NCBI GenBank assembly: GCA_945607605.1
Contig: CALYZE010000027.1
Span: 1 to 33,528 of the forward strand
Length of the DNA stretch: 33,528 bases
Reading direction: 5' to 3'
Origin: an uncultured Bacteroides sp.
GTDB taxonomy: Bacteria > Bacteroidota > Bacteroidia > Bacteroidales > Bacteroidaceae
The translations under genes were made by a program, and so were the position numbers. Below the pieces are notes generated by a model that was not told where the DNA came from, searched no databases, and saw only the letters and a list, made by a program, of their open reading frames with translations. Positions 2,235 through 33,009 of the stretch are shown piece by piece. How positions within the stretch are numbered: position 1 is the first letter of the stretch; the number at the start of each line of letters is the position of its first letter.

Positions 2235-3167
2235 TTACTTTTTGTGGGGAGTTTCACGCAACGTATAAATCTTTGAACTCCATGGTGAATAGCTGCGTTT
2301 TACACGGGTAATGGTGAGTACAGTGTCTTCCACATCGTGTACGTCGCTTTGAAATTCGTACATTGCCATGGAAATAGCGGCATAGATTTCTCCCGGAGCT
2401 TGACCCAACAGTTTCTCTTTGGCCTCTTGCTTGTCTGTGATACCTTTAGCTCTCATTGCATTACGCTTGCTGAGATTGACAGATATCTTGCCTACCAATT
2501 TGAATGATAGATAAAGCAGTATCAATCCGCAGAATACAACAGACATAGCAGAAACAGACATTCCGATACCTATACTGTCATGTTGTTCGAACTTTTCCAT
2601 CTTGGCATTGCTGTCGATGGTTTTGTTGTTGGTGCTTGGAGTCACATACTTGTCGGTACTTTGACCTTTCACTTCCCATTCGTCTGAAGCATCGCTGACA
2701 CGAGCATAAGACTGATCAGCTTTCAGCGTATTGGCAGGTACGACGATTTGGTCAAGCAAATTCCTGCCCGAATCGTATAAACCAATCCAATTGGCATTGA
2801 AAGGGTCCAGCTTGAAATTGGTATGGAAAGTACCACGGTTAGGTTGTCCATCAGCCCAGAATAAGGCATGTTGACGGGGTTTTACCACAGTCAAAATATC
2901 ACCTTTAGGAATAAAGTAGCTGAGAGTATCACCTGGCTGGCTGCTGATTTTCAGATAACAGCCTGCGAGGTTGGAACTACCGTATGATCTATTGAATATT
3001 TCAATCCATGCGCTGTGTACGCCATAGTCATCCTGAAAGCTGAGTTGATTGTCCATCAACACTTCATTCAGTAATAACTTCGTATTCGATTTCTGCTCTC
3101 CGCAAGAAGAACAGAAGCCTAACACCAGCATCAATGAAAGGAATATTCCGATTTTAGTTTTGTTCAT
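2235..3167 (-). CDS. Lamin-tail domain/OadG-type membrane subunit of the decarboxylase
   Basis: 310 residues. An N-terminal hydrophobic signal ends in a Cys (LVLGFCSSC), suggesting a signal peptide or lipoprotein anchor. Residues of about 30-170 resemble a Lamin Tail Domain (LLLNEVLMDNQ, WIEIFNRS, LAGCYLKIS, the usual LTD strand pattern). A membrane segment lies at about 199-222, followed by a short basic and acidic cytoplasmic tail, which matches the gamma chain (OadG) that assembles the alpha and beta subunits. Classical OadG proteins are about 80-90 residues and have no such extracytoplasmic domain. Position between mmdA and the biotin carrier supports the OadG role. The function of the LTD part is unknown. 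Confidence is high for the OadG-like role by context and moderate for the LTD fold. Confidence 0.8.
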   Translation of the reverse strand: MNKTKIGIFLSLMLVLGFCSSCGEQKSNTKLLLNEVLMDNQLSFQDDYGVHSAWIEIFNRSYGSSNLAGCYLKISSQPGDTLSYFIPKGDILTVVKPRQHALFWADGQPNRGTFHTNFKLDPFNANWIGLYDSGRNLLDQIVVPANTLKADQSYARVSDASDEWEVKGQSTDKYVTPSTNNKTIDSNAKMEKFEQHDSIGIGMSVSAMSVVFCGLILLYLSFKLVGKISVNLSKRNAMRAKGITDKQEAKEKLLGQAPGEIYAAISMAMYEFQSDVHDVEDTVLTITRVKRSYSPWSSKIYTLRETPHKK

Positions 3168-19672: not shown

Positions 19673-20326
19673 ATGAAACATATCATTGATATTGAGAACT
19701 GGGAACGGCGTGATAACTACGGTTTTTTTCGTGGTTTTGTAAGCTCATGGTACTCGGTGACTACAGAGATTGATTGTACAGAAGCAAGTGCTTCTGCAAG
19801 GGCCGCGGGACGCTCCTTCTTCCTTTATTATTTGTATGCCGTGTTACGTTCCGCCAATGAAGTAGATGAATTGCGTTTTCGGATTGACAAGGATGGACAA
19901 ATTGTCTTTCATGATCAAGTAGATATTATCTCACCGATAGCCGTTCCTGGTCGAACTTTTCATACCGTTCGCATTCCTTATCAGGAAGATTTTGAAATCT
20001 TTTACTCCAAGGCTTATACGTTGATTACCCATATTCCTGAAGAGGCTGATCCTTATGCAGCGGAAAAAATACTGGCCGAGCAGGGAGATTATGACGTAGT
20101 GCATTTAAGTGCAGTTCCGAAAATGTATTTTACGTCTACAACCTTTACACTTGCCGAGGTGGGTAATGCTTGTAGCCATCCGTTAATGACTGCCGGAAAA
20201 GTGGTAACCCGTGAAGGACGCTTGGTCTTTCCTCTTTCCATTTATGTGAATCATGCTTTTGTGGATGGTTCTCATCTCTCGTTGTTCTTTCAAAAGATCG
20301 AAGAACATTTGAAAAGAATTTCATAG
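19673..20326 (+). CDS. Chloramphenicol acetyltransferase (CAT) family protein
   Basis: 217 residues, the length of classical trimeric CAT enzymes. It has the N-terminal [17 protein letters not shown] block and the catalytic motif NHAFVDGSH, with His194 as general base and Asp198 as its structural partner. Chromosomal relatives of this kind are common in Bacteroidetes, and many do not confer resistance. The acceptor substrate is therefore open. It starts 20 bases after the dsbD terminator and could share leaky transcription. Confidence 0.85.
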
Positions 20327-27848: not shown

Positions 27849-27871
27849 AGCCTTCCGGGAGGGAGGCTTTT
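27849..27871 (+). terminator. Terminator of the his operon
   Basis: An 8-bp stem AGCCTTCC/GGGAGGCT (one G-U pair) with loop GGGA, followed by TTTT. It separates the his operon from the sigma-54 controlled locus. Confidence 0.88.
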
Positions 27872-27909
27872 GTCCGCAAATGAACATCCGGAGTGTCCGA
27901 AAATGAACA
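27871..27909 (+). promoter_or_regulatory. Two tandem dyad sites, likely upstream activating sequences
   Basis: Two copies of TGTCC-N6-GAACA lie at 27871-27886 and 27894-27909, 23 bases apart (about two helical turns). The 6-base centres are GCAAAT and GAAAAT. Each is an imperfect palindrome (TGTYC-N6-GRACA), as expected for a dimeric regulator. They sit about 60-90 bases upstream of the sigma-54 promoter start, typical for NtrC-family activators. The likely ligand is the response regulator encoded two genes on; this is inference. Confidence 0.75.
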
Positions 27910-27939
27910 CTGACCCCTTCCTGATACCATCCTTGCCGC

Positions 27940-27955
27940 TTGGCACGGTCTTTGC
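27940..27955 (+). promoter_or_regulatory. Sigma-54 promoter
   Basis: TTGGCACG, four bases, TTGC: the -24 GG (27942-27943) and -12 GC (27954-27955) are exactly 10 bases apart, matching the TGGCAC-N5-TTGC consensus at every position. The predicted start near 27966 is about 22 bases before the ATG of the TolC-like gene. This is one of the clearest regulatory signals in the window. Confidence 0.92.
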
Positions 27956-27987
27956 TTTTCTGTTAGCGATCATTTTAAAGACCGAAC

Positions 27988-29475
27988 ATGAAAAAGAATT
28001 GTTTACTTATAGCTTGCTTTTTAATGCCATTAATTGCATGGGCGCAAAACGATGCATTAGCGCAGGAGCGTGAGATTACTCTATCGGAGGCCATCGCCTT
28101 AGCACGTACCCAATCGGTAGATGCTGCCGTGGCTCTGAACGAGCTGAAGACTGCTTATTGGGAATATCGTACTTTTCGTGCCGATTTATTGCCGGAAGTA
28201 AATTTTACTGGAACACTGCCTAATTACAACAAATCATACAGTACGTATCAGAATTCTGACGGTTCTTATAGTTTTGTCCGTAGCAACACGTTGGGCTTGT
28301 CCGGTCAGCTTTCCATCGACCAGAACATCTGGTTTACGGGAGGTAAGCTATCTTTGGCCTCTTCATTGGATTATATCAAGCAATTAGGTTCCGGAGGTGA
28401 CAAGCAATTTATGTCCGTCCCTGTGAGCCTTGAATTGACTCAACCCATTTTCGGCGTGAATAATCTGAAATGGAACCGTCGTATTGAGCCCGTACGCTAT
28501 GCCGAGGCGAAAGCTGCATTTATTTCGGCTACGGAGGGAGTAACGATGAAAACCATCACTTATTTCTTTCAGTTATTGTTGGCAAAAGAGGCACTTGCTA
28601 CGGCAGAGCAGAATAAAACCAATTCCGACCGACTTTATGAAGTGGCTATTGCCAAACGTAAAATGGGGCAGATTTCGGAAAACGACTTATTGCAGCTTAA
28701 ACTGAATGCCTTGCAAGGAAAGGCGGATGTGACGGAGTCGGAAAGTAACCTGAATGCCAGAATGTTCCAACTTCGTTCTTTTTTGGGCATATCCGAGCAG
28801 GAAACTCTAAAACCGGTACTGCCCGCTTCGGTTCCTGATGTAAAAATGGAGTACGACCGTGTACTAAACAAGGCTTTGGAGCGTAACTCTTTTGCACAGA
28901 ACATTCGACGTCGTCAACTAGAAGCTGATTATGAAGTTGCCACGGCACGAGGAAATCTCAGAAGCATCGATCTTTTTGCGAATGTAGGTTATACCGGTCA
29001 AAATCGTGAATTCTCTTCTGCTTACCAAGATTTACTTGATAACCAGATTGTGAGAGTAGGAGTGAAGATCCCTATTCTTGACTGGGGGAAACGCCGCGGA
29101 AAGGTACGGGTTGCCAAGAGTAACCGTGAAGTGGTATTGTCGAAACTCCGTCAGGAGCAAATGGATTTTAATCAGGATATTTTCTTGTTGGTGGCCAACT
29201 TTAATAATCAGGCCCAACAATTGAATATTGCGGAAGAAGCGGATGTGATTGCTGAAAAACGTTACCAGACCAGTGTGGAGACTTTTATGATTGGAAAAAT
29301 CAGTACCCTGGATTTAAATGATGCTCAAAACTCCAAGGATGAGGCCCGTCAGAAACATATTTCAGAACTCTATTATTATTGGTATTATTTCTATCAACTC
29401 CGTAGCCTTACCCTTTGGGATTTCGATCGTAATTCTGAATTAGAAGCTGATTTCGATGATATTGTAAGAGGATAA
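27988..29475 (+). CDS. TolC-family outer membrane efflux protein
   Basis: 495 residues with a signal peptide (LLIACFLMPLIAWAQ) and the paired long helical repeats of the TolC fold. The first helix block starts EITLSEAIALARTQSVDAAVALNELKTAYWEYR, and the second repeat starts near residue 290 with YDRVLNKALERN. Strand segments such as LGLSGQLSIDQNIW and IVRVGVKIPILDWG fit the outer membrane barrel. The protein would be the exit duct for an efflux or secretion pump, but no membrane-fusion or inner-membrane transporter gene lies beside it. Expression probably depends on sigma-54 and the downstream regulator. Confidence 0.9.
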   Translation: MKKNCLLIACFLMPLIAWAQNDALAQEREITLSEAIALARTQSVDAAVALNELKTAYWEYRTFRADLLPEVNFTGTLPNYNKSYSTYQNSDGSYSFVRSNTLGLSGQLSIDQNIWFTGGKLSLASSLDYIKQLGSGGDKQFMSVPVSLELTQPIFGVNNLKWNRRIEPVRYAEAKAAFISATEGVTMKTITYFFQLLLAKEALATAEQNKTNSDRLYEVAIAKRKMGQISENDLLQLKLNALQGKADVTESESNLNARMFQLRSFLGISEQETLKPVLPASVPDVKMEYDRVLNKALERNSFAQNIRRRQLEADYEVATARGNLRSIDLFANVGYTGQNREFSSAYQDLLDNQIVRVGVKIPILDWGKRRGKVRVAKSNREVVLSKLRQEQMDFNQDIFLLVANFNNQAQQLNIAEEADVIAEKRYQTSVETFMIGKISTLDLNDAQNSKDEARQKHISELYYYWYYFYQLRSLTLWDFDRNSELEADFDDIVRG

Positions 29476-29500
29476 TAGTCTATTACTATAAATTTTTCTT

Positions 29501-29508
29501 TATTTTTG
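29501..29508 (+). promoter_or_regulatory. -7 box for the response regulator-kinase pair
   Basis: TATTTTTG matches TAnnTTTG in the 58-base gap after the TolC-like gene and lies 26 bases before the ATG. No clear -33 element. It could allow sigma-54 independent expression of the two-component genes. Confidence 0.45.
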
Positions 29509-29533
29509 CAAGAAACAAACTTCAAAATCCATT

Positions 29534-30889
29534 ATGATACTGATAATAGACGACGATAGTGCTGTACGCTCTTCACTTAGTTTTATGTTGAAACGTGCCG
29601 GATATGCGGTTATGGATGCTCCGGGACCCCGTGAAGCGATGGACATTGTTCGTGTCGAAGAACCGGCTTTAATATTGATGGATATGAACTTTAGCCTTTC
29701 CACCACCGGTGAAGAAGGGCTTACTTTATTGAAACAAGTCAAGGTCTTTCGCCCCGATGTGCCTGTCATTCTAATGACAGCGTGGGGAAGTATTCAACTG
29801 GCCGTGCAGGGAATGCAGACGGGGGCTTTCGATTTCATTACCAAACCGTGGAATAATGCGGCTTTGTTGCAGCGCATAGAAACGGCTTTAGAACTGACTG
29901 CTGTCTCAAAGGATCTTCCTGAAGAAGTGGATTTTACGTTAACCCGAAACCATATCATCGGCAAATCAAAAGGGTTGATGAATGTCTTGAATACGGTGGC
30001 TCGCATTGCTCACACGAATGCTCCTGTACTGATTACGGGTGAGAGTGGAACTGGCAAAGAACTCATTGCAGAAGCTATCCACATCAATAGTCAGCGTGTG
30101 AGGCAGCCTTTTGTTAAGGTCAATCTTGGCGGCATTTCACAAAGCTTATTCGAAAGTGAAATGTTTGGCCATAAGAAAGGGGCGTTTACTGATGCAAGTG
30201 CCGACCGTATGGGACGCTTTGAGATGGCAAACAAAGGTACGATCTTTCTGGATGAAATCGGTGACCTTGATCCTTCTTGTCAGGTAAAACTGTTAAGAGT
30301 CTTGCAGGATCAGACGTTTGAAATATTAGGTGACAGCCGTCCCCGTAAAGTAGATGTACGGGTTGTGTCTGCTACCAATGCCGATTTGCGCAAAATGGTT
30401 TCCGAACGTACCTTCCGCGAAGATTTATTCTATCGTATCAATCTGATAACAGTGCAGCTTCCTTCCTTGCGCGAGCGTCGTGAAGATATTCCTTTGCTGG
30501 CGCGTCATTTTGCCGATCGTCAAGCCGAACTGAACCGTTTGCCTCGTACGGAGTTCTCGACAGATGCTTTGAACTTTCTTTCGCGTTTGCCTTATCCGGG
30601 CAATATCCGTGAATTGAAGAATCTGGTAGAACGTACGATTCTGGTTAGTGGAAAATCTGTATTGGATGCTACTGATTTTGATGGTCAGTATCTGCGACAT
30701 GACGAACCGGTGAGAGCAGGTGAAAACTCTTCGTTTGCGGGTATGACGCTGGATGAAATAGAGCGGCAGACTATTTTGCAAGCTTTGGATCAGTATAAAG
30801 GGAATCTCAGTCAGGTGGCTGTGACATTAGGAATTAGCCGTGCGGCACTTTATCGCCGTTTGGAAAAATATAATATAAGTTATGAGTAA
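29534..30889 (+). CDS. NtrC-family sigma-54 dependent response regulator
   Basis: 451 residues in the classical order. The receiver domain (1-115) has the acidic pocket IIDDD, phospho-acceptor Asp50 (LMDMN), Thr82 and Lys104. The AAA+ domain (about 138-375) has Walker A GESGTGKE (168-175), the sigma-54 loop GAFTDA (215-220) and Walker B TIFLDE. The C-terminal Fis-type helix-turn-helix lies at about 420-447 (LSQVAVTLGISRAALYRRLEKY). GAFTDA differs from the usual GAFTGA at the fifth residue. The adjacent sigma-54 promoter and tandem dyads are its likely target. The kinase gene follows after 5 bases. Confidence 0.95.
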   Translation: MILIIDDDSAVRSSLSFMLKRAGYAVMDAPGPREAMDIVRVEEPALILMDMNFSLSTTGEEGLTLLKQVKVFRPDVPVILMTAWGSIQLAVQGMQTGAFDFITKPWNNAALLQRIETALELTAVSKDLPEEVDFTLTRNHIIGKSKGLMNVLNTVARIAHTNAPVLITGESGTGKELIAEAIHINSQRVRQPFVKVNLGGISQSLFESEMFGHKKGAFTDASADRMGRFEMANKGTIFLDEIGDLDPSCQVKLLRVLQDQTFEILGDSRPRKVDVRVVSATNADLRKMVSERTFREDLFYRINLITVQLPSLRERREDIPLLARHFADRQAELNRLPRTEFSTDALNFLSRLPYPGNIRELKNLVERTILVSGKSVLDATDFDGQYLRHDEPVRAGENSSFAGMTLDEIERQTILQALDQYKGNLSQVAVTLGISRAALYRRLEKYNISYE

Positions 30890-30894
30890 CTCAC

Positions 30895-32229
30895 GTGCGC
30901 ATTAAATTCTTCTTTTTCATACTTGTGATCTTTCTGCTTGGCCTGGGCGGATTGCTGATCTATTTTATCGGTAAATTACATTTCATGCACTTGTATATTA
31001 TCGAAGGGCTGATTGTATTTATCTTGATTTATCTGATTGTGTTCTACCGTAAGATTGTCAAGCCGATGAATACGATTGGAAACGGTATGGAATTATTGCG
31101 TGAACAAGACTTTAGTAGCCGTTTGAGTAAAGTAGGACAGTACGAAGCCGATCGCATTGTGAATATCTTCAACCGTATGATGGAGCAACTCAAAAACGAA
31201 CGGTTGAGATTGCGTGAGCAGAACCATTTTTTGGATTTACTGATTCAGGCTTCTCCAATGGGAGTGGTCATCACCAATATGGATGGCAAGGTATCTCAGG
31301 TAAATCCGATGGCCTTAAAAATGCTTGGAATTTGTCTGGAAGAAGCGTTGAACAAACCGTTGGAGCAAGTTGAATCGCTTCTGGCGATAGAGTTAGCTAC
31401 GATTCCAAAGGACGAAACAGCAGTGGTTCGTCTCAACGACGCAAATATCTATAAATGTACCCATTCTTTTTTCATTGACCGTGGATTTAAACACCCTTTC
31501 TTCTTAATAGAACGTATGACGGAGGAAGTGATGCGGGCTGAAAAACGGACATATGAGAAGGTTATTCGTATGATTGCTCATGAAGTAAACAATACGACGG
31601 CGGGCATTACCTCCACATTGGATACCGTAGAACAGGCTCTTTCTACGGAAGAGGGCATGGAGGATCTTTGTAACGTGATGCGTGTTTGTATGGAACGCTG
31701 CTTCTCGATGAGCCGGTTCATTACCCGTTTTGCTGACGTGGTGAAGATTCCTGAGCCTACTTTGGTACCTGTATCCTTGAACGAATTGGTTTCTATGTGC
31801 AAACGCTTTATGGAAGGCATGTGCAATGACCGCCAGATTAATCTTCACTTGGAATGTGACCCGGCAGTAGGAGTTCTTTGTCTGGATGTTTCTCTCTTTG
31901 AACAAGTGTTGGTAAATATCATCAAGAATGCTGCTGAAAGTATAGAAAGTGTTGCGGGACAATCGGATAAACGAGGAGAGATTACAGTACGTACCATTGC
32001 TCCTGCTGGCATTGAAATAGTGGACAATGGTCCTGGAATTAGCAAAGAGATCGAATCCAAACTCTTCAGCCCTTTCTTCTCTACCAAGCCAAATGGCCAA
32101 GGAATTGGCTTGATTTTTATTCGGGAAGTGTTGAGCCGCCATGGTTGCACATTCTCCTTGCGCACATACAAGGATGGTATGACGCGTTTTCGTATTCGTA
32201 TCTCCGATGATAGGTGTTTGCATCTTTAG
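30895..32229 (+). CDS. Membrane sensor histidine kinase
   Basis: 444 residues from a GTG start. Two membrane helices lie at about 4-25 and 32-51 with only a few residues between, so there is essentially no periplasmic sensor domain. A HAMP-like segment (about 52-105) and a PAS domain (about 110-205) follow. The H box has His229 in RMIAHEVNN. The ATPase domain has NIIKNAAES, DNGPGIS and GQGIGLIFIREVLSRHG. The layout suggests sensing within the membrane or cytoplasm. It is the likely partner of the response regulator 5 bases upstream. Confidence 0.93.
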   Translation: MRIKFFFFILVIFLLGLGGLLIYFIGKLHFMHLYIIEGLIVFILIYLIVFYRKIVKPMNTIGNGMELLREQDFSSRLSKVGQYEADRIVNIFNRMMEQLKNERLRLREQNHFLDLLIQASPMGVVITNMDGKVSQVNPMALKMLGICLEEALNKPLEQVESLLAIELATIPKDETAVVRLNDANIYKCTHSFFIDRGFKHPFFLIERMTEEVMRAEKRTYEKVIRMIAHEVNNTTAGITSTLDTVEQALSTEEGMEDLCNVMRVCMERCFSMSRFITRFADVVKIPEPTLVPVSLNELVSMCKRFMEGMCNDRQINLHLECDPAVGVLCLDVSLFEQVLVNIIKNAAESIESVAGQSDKRGEITVRTIAPAGIEIVDNGPGISKEIESKLFSPFFSTKPNGQGIGLIFIREVLSRHGCTFSLRTYKDGMTRFRIRISDDRCLHL

Positions 32230-32357: not shown

Positions 32358-32384
32358 CCGTCTAAAATTGGGTAAAGATTGGGT

Positions 32385-32783
32385 ATGAAATTGTTTTTTA
32401 GGGTATTTCTGTTCATGCAACTGATTACTCTGTCGTTGCAGGCACAATATAGGGTGCAAGGTGTTGTTACCGACTCATTGCCAAAGGAGCCATTAGCTTA
32501 TACATCTGTTTATTTGAAAGGAACCACAGAAGGGGGAATGACTGATGATGAAGGGCATTTCTCTTTCAAAGCCTACCGTCCGGAAGGAACCTTAATCATT
32601 TCGGCTGTAGGGTCTCATGAATACGCACGGTTGATATATCCTGAACGTGATCTACGTTTACGCGTGGCACTATCACCGGCTACTTATGCGTTGAATGAAG
32701 TAGTGATAAAACCTAAACGGGAGCGTTATAAGAAAAAAGATAATCCGGCAGTGGAGTTCGTACGACAAATGATTGAGCATCGA
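32385..32783 (+). pseudogene. Truncated carboxypeptidase-regulatory-like/DUF5686 outer membrane protein gene
   Basis: The start is the ATG at 32385 (a TTG at 32379 is also in frame). The first residues form a signal peptide (LFFRVFLFMQLITLSLQAQ). A CarboxypepD-reg-like beta domain follows at about 20-95 (YRVQGVVTDSLPKEPLAYTSVYLKGT through LNEVVIKP). The linker motif KKKDNPAVEFVRQMIEHR then leads, in the DUF5686 family, into a large domain of several hundred residues. Here the familiar sequence stops at codon 133 (32781-32783). The frame runs on to 32927 through 48 unrelated residues that are antisense to an Rhs fragment. The gene is therefore interrupted by a rearrangement. The promoter and start look intact. 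Confidence 0.8.
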
Positions 32784-33009
32784 CCGCCAATTTGTCCAAC
32801 AAGCGCATCTGCGACAATTTGCTCCGTATTCACTTCTCCCTTCACCGCCATCTGCGAAGCCACACTCATTGTAGCATCCACTGTAACCTCAAATTGCCAT
32901 TCGCGTCATAAGCATACTCTACAGTAGTATTAGAACCATTTTTAAATTCAAAAACACCGTTGTAAGCCGCAGTCGTAGTTATTATACTATTGTTTATCTT
33001 TAAGACTAT
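32784..33009 (-). pseudogene. Rhs/YD-repeat gene remnants (two fragments in different frames)
   Basis: On the minus strand, 33009 down to about 32890 reads INNSIITTTAAYNGVFEF followed by KNGSNTTVEYAYDANGNL, a typical Bacteroidetes Rhs/YD-repeat unit. It ends at a stop codon shortly after, at about 32870. In another frame, about 32891 down to 32784 reads EVTVDATMSVASQMAVKG, then EVNTEQIVADALVGQIGG, which resembles the region between Rhs core and toxin tip in polymorphic toxins. The frame switch suggests an internal deletion. Neither fragment has a start or a complete domain. The YD-repeat call is fairly firm, the second fragment less so. Confidence 0.65.

Follow-up and report, generated by a model that had tools for sequence, protein, structure and literature searches.

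A candidate sigma-54-type regulon joining a TolC-like duct and a MacB/FtsX-type pump encoded at two loci in Bacteroides

INTRODUCTION

Two-component systems such as NtrBC, ZraSR and AtoSC combine a response regulator made of a receiver, an AAA+ domain and a Fis-type helix-turn-helix (HTH) with an adjoining kinase, and palindromes are found 5' of their -24/-12 promoters. Enhancers of the NtrC family typically lie 80 to 150 bases from the -24 element. Here we describe a system with the same overall organization in an uncultured Bacteroides sp. The stretch analyzed, called the window below, is the entire contig CALYZE010000027.1 (33,528 nucleotides; C27) of a 2.65-Mb genome that is 98.5% complete and assembled in 116 contigs. 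In the window, two dyads and a sigma-54-type promoter are followed by genes for a TolC-like outer membrane factor, an NtrC-type regulator and a histidine kinase. We consider it very likely that this two-component system controls a MacB/FtsX-type tripartite pump through sigma-54-type promoters, by which two loci would be induced jointly.

Several features set the system apart from NtrBC, ZraSR and AtoSC. Among the 25 best NCBIfam models for each protein, the regulator and the kinase both score below the cut-offs, the nearest being AtoC for the regulator (416 versus a cut-off of 714 bits) and AtoS for the kinase (136 versus 646 bits). The sigma-54 contact loop reads GAFTDA instead of GAFTGA, the candidate enhancers lie about 30 to 65 bases from the -24 element, and the promoters of one class, with a long spacer, mostly end in GA. 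The target, known here from its genes, resembles the MacAB-TolC pumps (type VII ATP-binding cassette [ABC] tripartite pumps) in having an HlyD adaptor, a MacB_PCD/FtsX permease and an outer membrane factor of the OEP family. It differs from them in three respects: the ABC ATPase is a protein distinct from the FtsX permeases, for which there are often several genes; the components are spread over two loci here; and DUF2807 and DUF3836 proteins are found in the regulon.

The Bce modules form a third point of comparison. They use an OmpR-type regulator; since the regulator described here is of the NtrC type, we do not file the system as a Bce module. In addition, the kinase here carries HAMP and PAS domains, the regulator is paired with sigma-54, the pump is tripartite and the host is Gram negative. 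A Bce-type module joins an intramembrane-sensing kinase to an ABC transporter whose extracytoplasmic part is large, which is where the likeness lies, and Bce-like systems are described as Firmicutes specific (PMC3023708). For Bacteroidia, promoter scans have predicted sigma-54 promoters 5' of COG0577 FtsX-like ABC permeases (PMC12316311); the accessible part of that study mentions neither an activator nor enhancer sites, and neither a link to TolC nor a split regulon. In Flavobacterium psychrophilum, a sigma-54 regulon is reported to be linked with envelope stress and with the quality control of proteins (PMC9723704). Among the matches listed in a literature search, no title or abstract start named the activator described here, its dyads or its link between tolC and a pump.

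RESULTS

Paired dyads and a sigma-54-type promoter ahead of tolC

The upstream dyad TGTCCGCAAATGAACA (27871..27886, + strand) is an exact palindrome of the form TGTYCR-N4-YGRACA, and the downstream dyad TGTCCGAAAATGAACA (27894..27909, +), presumed to be a binding site of the response regulator, also matches this form exactly. Their starts are 23 bases apart. A 31-base spacer of the tolC type (27910..27940, +), with a conserved C-rich tract and without an IHF-like box, separates the second dyad from the TGGCAC of the -24/-12 promoter TGGCACGGTCTTTGC (27941..27955, +), which fits the sigma-54 consensus GG-N10-GC, here TGGCAC-N5-TTGC, exactly. The original prediction had proposed two TGTCC-N6-GAACA sites 23 bases apart and a full-consensus promoter at this place. 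The spacing and the promoter were confirmed, and the proposed dyad is exact at both sites, although the palindrome TGTYCR-N4-YGRACA is the better form. The two dyads are the only matches to TGTCC-N6-GAACA without a mismatch in the window. With up to 2 mismatches, 31 matches were found versus 26.6 expected; this count is near chance, and therefore only exact, paired sites stand out. TGGCAC-N5-TTGC occurs, as an exact match, once in the window and 7 times in the 2.65-Mb genome. Taken alone and with 1 mismatch allowed, the -24/-12 pattern was too common to serve as a marker (231 matches versus 109 in the control).

The promoter is followed by the gene for a TolC-like outer membrane factor of 495 amino acids (27988..29475, +; PF02321 OEP, 1.8e-38). 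Among named records, its closest counterpart is the TolC of B. fluxus (94%), on which we base the assignment of the genome to Bacteroides. The next gene encodes an NtrC-type response regulator of 451 amino acids (29534..30889, +) with Response_reg, Sigma54_activat, AAA lid and HTH_8 domains, and the third, with a GTG start, a sensor histidine kinase of 444 amino acids (30895..32229, +) with HAMP, PAS and HATPase_c domains. These gene identities, all from Pfam, agree with those originally proposed.

To describe the conservation of this arrangement, the best 80 of 103 TolC loci with named records were compared. A strict dyad, TGTYCR-N4-YGRACA, lay within 300 bases 5' of tolC in 64/80 loci, and a dyad plus TGGYAY-N4-YTTG in 63/80. 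The dyads and the promoter are thus conserved in relatives, and the original prediction, which would have been refuted by a lack of conservation of the dyads or of the GG/GC elements, passes this test. Pump genes were found within 6 kb upstream of tolC in 15 of the 16 loci without a strict tolC dyad; the remaining one, L050, has degenerate dyads only. A strict dyad was present elsewhere in the fetched locus in 10 of these 16, located at the adaptor gene (7 loci, including L067, where the stop-to-stop open frame of the adaptor begins ahead of the dyad) or ahead of an ABC gene (L069 and L078) or permease genes (L076). Of the other 6, without any strict dyad, 5 had no adaptor match within the fetched stretch.

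The same control elements precede a pump operon in the same genome

Strict dyads occur at 7 places in the 2.65-Mb genome (2 places for the reversed control), and among these 7 only the window pair and the dyad at C76:4217 have a GG-N10-G(C/T)-like element within 75 bases 3'. The single strict dyads at C1:1515, C11:1932, C52:143 and C57:6834 lack a -24/-12-like element in the 75 bases to either side and were dropped as chance matches. The C76:4217 dyad starts 124 bases before an operon encoding an HlyD-type adaptor, an ABC ATPase, a DUF2807 protein, a MacB_PCD/FtsX permease and an FtsX permease, within which the contig ends. The genome holds a component set of the MacAB-TolC type, namely adaptor, MacB/FtsX permease with ABC ATPase and outer membrane factor. 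The pump genes and tolC form one locus in many relatives. The adaptor was detected in 16 of the 31 relatives searched, and in 15 of the 16 loci (our genome included) a dyad is followed, 44 to 45 bases on, by a TGG element; 14 of these dyads are strict and that of L291 has 1 mismatch. Neither element was found at the L290 adaptor locus, where the adaptor match begins at residue 96. A scan of the MacB_PCD loci of the genome (C38 twice, C45, C59, C28 and C76) with about 1.5 kb of flanks did not detect a dyad accompanied by a TGGC-type TTG promoter; the stretch scanned does not reach the C76 site, and sites equally distant at the other loci would escape as well.

Composite sites across the genus

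Within the genus, 119 genomes were scanned for a composite pattern consisting of the dyad, 15 to 45 bases and TGGCAY-N4-TTTG. This yielded 134 sites in 84 of the genomes, with at least 2 sites in 40 of them, and the reversed composite matched in none of the 119. For the 133 sites that are not in the window, the first gene downstream was tolC (65 sites), an ABC ATPase gene (32), an HlyD-type adaptor gene (17), a DUF3836 gene (10), a head-GIN DUF2807 gene (8) or another gene (1, resembling an outer membrane protein); thus, tolC, ABC or adaptor genes follow 114/133 sites. Pfam was used to check one protein each of the DUF3836 and head-GIN groups, and the remaining assignments were made by BLAST to these or to genes of our genome. 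The original prediction that further dyads with sigma-54 sites mark a regulon including the missing pump components was borne out by the C76 operon and by these 114 sites. Its corollary, that duct and pump are under separate control, found no support: the two are encoded apart, yet the C76 operon bears the same control elements as tolC.

The small and apparently secreted DUF3836 protein recurs among the targets of the predicted regulon (10/133 sites: L113, L121, L130, L153, L158, L177, L181, L183, L202 and L217). Its promoter is well conserved and has a GCGAA block on its 3' side.

Two promoter designs

The spacers of tolC sites measure 30 to 32 bases (47/65) or 45 bases (18/65), and those of the sites of other genes 43 to 45 bases. 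The 30- to 32-base spacer goes with a tolC gene located apart from the pump: counting the window, 29 of 35 split loci have it, versus 0 of 34 joined loci; the P value of 8e-14 is a guide only, since the genomes are related, and 12 loci of unreadable arrangement were left out. On the regulator tree, at least 8 changes are needed for the joined arrangement and at least 10 for the split one (starred branches), and no single origin of the split is shown. All 37 short-spacer tolC loci (30 to 31 bases) have a partner dyad with at most 2 mismatches, 22 to 24 bases apart, and the -12 dinucleotide of the short-spacer class (n = 47) is GC in 34 sites and GT in 13.

Spacer sequences were aligned for 121 of the 133 sites, duplicates and other spacings being dropped. 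In the 45-base class, a TGATAATCAG....TTA box is conserved some 23 bases 5' of TGGCA. A box fitting an IHF-type consensus was present in 29/59 sites of the 45-base class (mean of 0.4 in shuffled sequences) and in 6/23 of the 44-base class (0.08). In the 31-base class, the IHF-like box WATCARNNNNTTR was found in 0/39 sites, which carry C-rich and CTTCTG elements. The dyads may act as short-range enhancers, assisted by DNA bending in the long-spacer class.

The regulator and its co-occurrence with the motif

The regulator has the NtrC-type architecture (receiver, sigma-54 AAA+ domain and Fis-type HTH). In related regulators, GESGTGKE is kept in 87/88 and FLDEI in 86/88 (Walker motifs), and the sigma-54 contact loop is GAFTDA in 83/88, GAFTGA in 2 and neither in 3. 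The genome has rpoN (on C62) and 4 strong sigma-54 activators; of the paralogues, that on C84 has GAFTDA and those on C6 and C23 have GAFTGA. The HTH_8 domain (30746..30871, +; residues 405 to 446 by Pfam) contains the helix GISRAALYRRLEKY, which is identical or nearly so in the closer orthologues, varies in the distant ones and is unlike that of the paralogues on C23 and C84.

In 295 genomes of the order, the orthologue group comprises 23 genomes scoring at least 497 bits plus G353 (a fragment with 57% identity); among the matches listed, scores outside the group reach at most 380 bits. The composite motif occurs in 5 of the 24 genomes with the orthologue versus 1 of the 271 without it (Fisher P = 1.3e-5). 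Twenty regions were inspected, 19 around orthologues (one being a second copy in G296) plus that of G348. Pump genes stand beside the regulator in 17 of them; of the other three, L258 begins at a contig end, L273 has none in about 2.6 kb and L275 is that of G348. A strict dyad lies ahead of the adaptor or ABC gene in 11/20 regions (in L256, the open frame begins 40 bases before the dyad), and in 8 of these 11 a promoter-like element follows within 74 bases. In L265 such an element follows a neighboring 1-mismatch dyad, and in L268 and L271 none was found. Among the 9 other regions, L266 has a 1-mismatch dyad, L262 has a dyad inside the open frame of the adaptor, and three stretches are incomplete. 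The second regulator copy in G296 (L261; G296:C15) is diverged (63%) and has its own ABC/FtsX genes, dyad and promoter.

A kinase with a minimal loop

Examined by eye in the window kinase and 69 related ones, the N termini contain two hydrophobic, presumably membrane-spanning stretches joined by a loop of about 6 to 10 residues (about 8 in the window); L019 and L020 are not cleanly readable, and L265 is a distant kinase. So short a loop leaves no space for a periplasmic sensor domain, and in this the kinase fits the intramembrane-sensing type (two helices, minimal loop). Of 67 anchorable kinases, 65 have a glutamate close to the beginning of helix 2 (any E in the 14 residues spanning the loop and the helix start). 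The H-box is HEVNN in the window and HE[VIL]NN in 69/69 related kinases.

Surroundings of the locus in the window

No pump family was found by Pfam in 19 of the 22 open reading frames (at least 150 amino acids) of positions 1 to 25000, all those scanned there, or in 32379-32927, and within this scope the original statement that no pump gene adjoins the three genes holds. The genes directly 5' of tolC were named hisD, hisC and hisB by reading their translations, and hisG was assigned by Pfam. A CarboxypepD_reg-type gene (32379-32927) lies 3' of the kinase gene. Similarity to six relatives ends at about 32782, and the final 750 bases are unmatched in all six stretches compared; this break could be either a contig misjoin or a genuine rearrangement. 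Elsewhere, a PF00302 chloramphenicol-acetyltransferase-family protein (19673-20323) adjoins a DUF2490 gene, and an oxaloacetate decarboxylase gamma-type protein (2238-3167) has an N-terminal match to the Lamin Tail Domain.

DISCUSSION

We favor, with high confidence, a two-component system that controls a MacB/FtsX-type tripartite pump. The kinase with its near-absent periplasmic domain would pair with the NtrC-type activator. Once phosphorylated, the regulator would bind one or two neighboring TGTYCR-N4-YGRACA palindromes about 30 to 65 bases 5' of the -24 element and spend ATP to open the sigma-54 RNA polymerase. The parts of what may be one pump are encoded on two contigs, tolC-regulator-kinase in the window and adaptor-ABC-DUF2807-FtsX-FtsX on C76. 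Because each locus has its own dyads and promoter, both pump halves would be induced together, and the regulator would raise its own level too. The signal is likely envelope or antimicrobial-peptide stress.

Several observations weigh against this scheme. The strict composite is missing in 35/119 congeners, including 15 of 70 good assemblies (it is present in 55/70), and in 19 of the 24 orthologue-bearing genomes of the order; 4 of the 20 order-wide regions (L267, L269, L270 and L272) have no dyad. Just 9 of 20 long-spacer tolC loci (43 to 45 bases) have a partner dyad, 19 or 21 bases apart, and the upstream partner at C76, 19 bases upstream of C76:4217, is imperfect (2 mismatches). The GG of the -24 element is kept in the long-spacer class (n = 86), but its -12 dinucleotide is GA in 67 sites, GC in 12, GG in 5 and GT in 2; that of the C76 promoter is GT, and relatives have GC, GT or GA at this promoter. 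Where pump genes and tolC are joined, transcription of the regulator gene may come from the promoter at the operon head.

The dyads could instead be bound by another factor, such as a second enhancer-binding protein or a repressor, with the adjacent two-component system a passenger of the pump locus. We regard this as improbable. It gains from the 4 strong activators of the genome and from G348, in which dyad, promoter and adaptor-ABC-Perm-Perm-TolC genes are present (L275 and L293; G348:C280) and the orthologous regulator was not found genome-wide. Loss of that gene at a contig break was rejected as an explanation: the contig continues for more than 5 kb past tolC, and no regulator or kinase was found in the 5.4 kb remaining. 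The assembly is, however, 93% complete and in about 330 contigs, so that the gene may be missing from it, or it may have been lost. Against a passenger role, the motif co-occurs with the regulator orthologue across the order, and the closer orthologues retain the HTH helix, which is distinct from those of C23 and C84.

Somewhat less probable still is that the tolC and pump loci share the motif by descent alone, co-regulation having been lost or the two not forming one pump. In its favor, many relatives combine these genes in one locus, in some cases with one dyad site only, at the head of that locus, and the -12 dinucleotide at C76 is GT. Ahead of the adaptor, however, the dyad, the -24 element and the 44- to 45-base spacing are kept in 15/16 loci despite differing spacers, and at least 2 composite sites occur in 40/119 congeners. 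That the dyads are chance matches or a dispersed repeat, as their near-chance number at 2 mismatches in the window might suggest, has a vanishing probability and is refuted by conservation: the reversed control gave 0 sites versus 134 in the 119 genomes, the spacings are fixed and the same few genes stand behind them.

Beyond the joint control of duct and pump that we favor, a bolder and doubtful idea is that the loop-less kinase senses, within the membrane, how its own FtsX-type transporter is working. The system would then be a sigma-54-based equivalent of the Bce modules of Firmicutes that, by way of the NtrC-type regulator, switches on pump and duct at scattered loci, with the two promoter designs (the short spacer lacking and the long one having an IHF-like bend site) setting different responses for duct and pump.

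In the literature searched, the sigma-54 regulons of gut Bacteroides are little charted. Here an activator, its enhancer sites, its promoters and its target set are predicted jointly, and they recur across the genus. The motif can be used for locating the regulon, and the system illustrates how a two-locus pump can bear one set of control signals and offers a Gram-negative case for studying transporter-coupled sensing.

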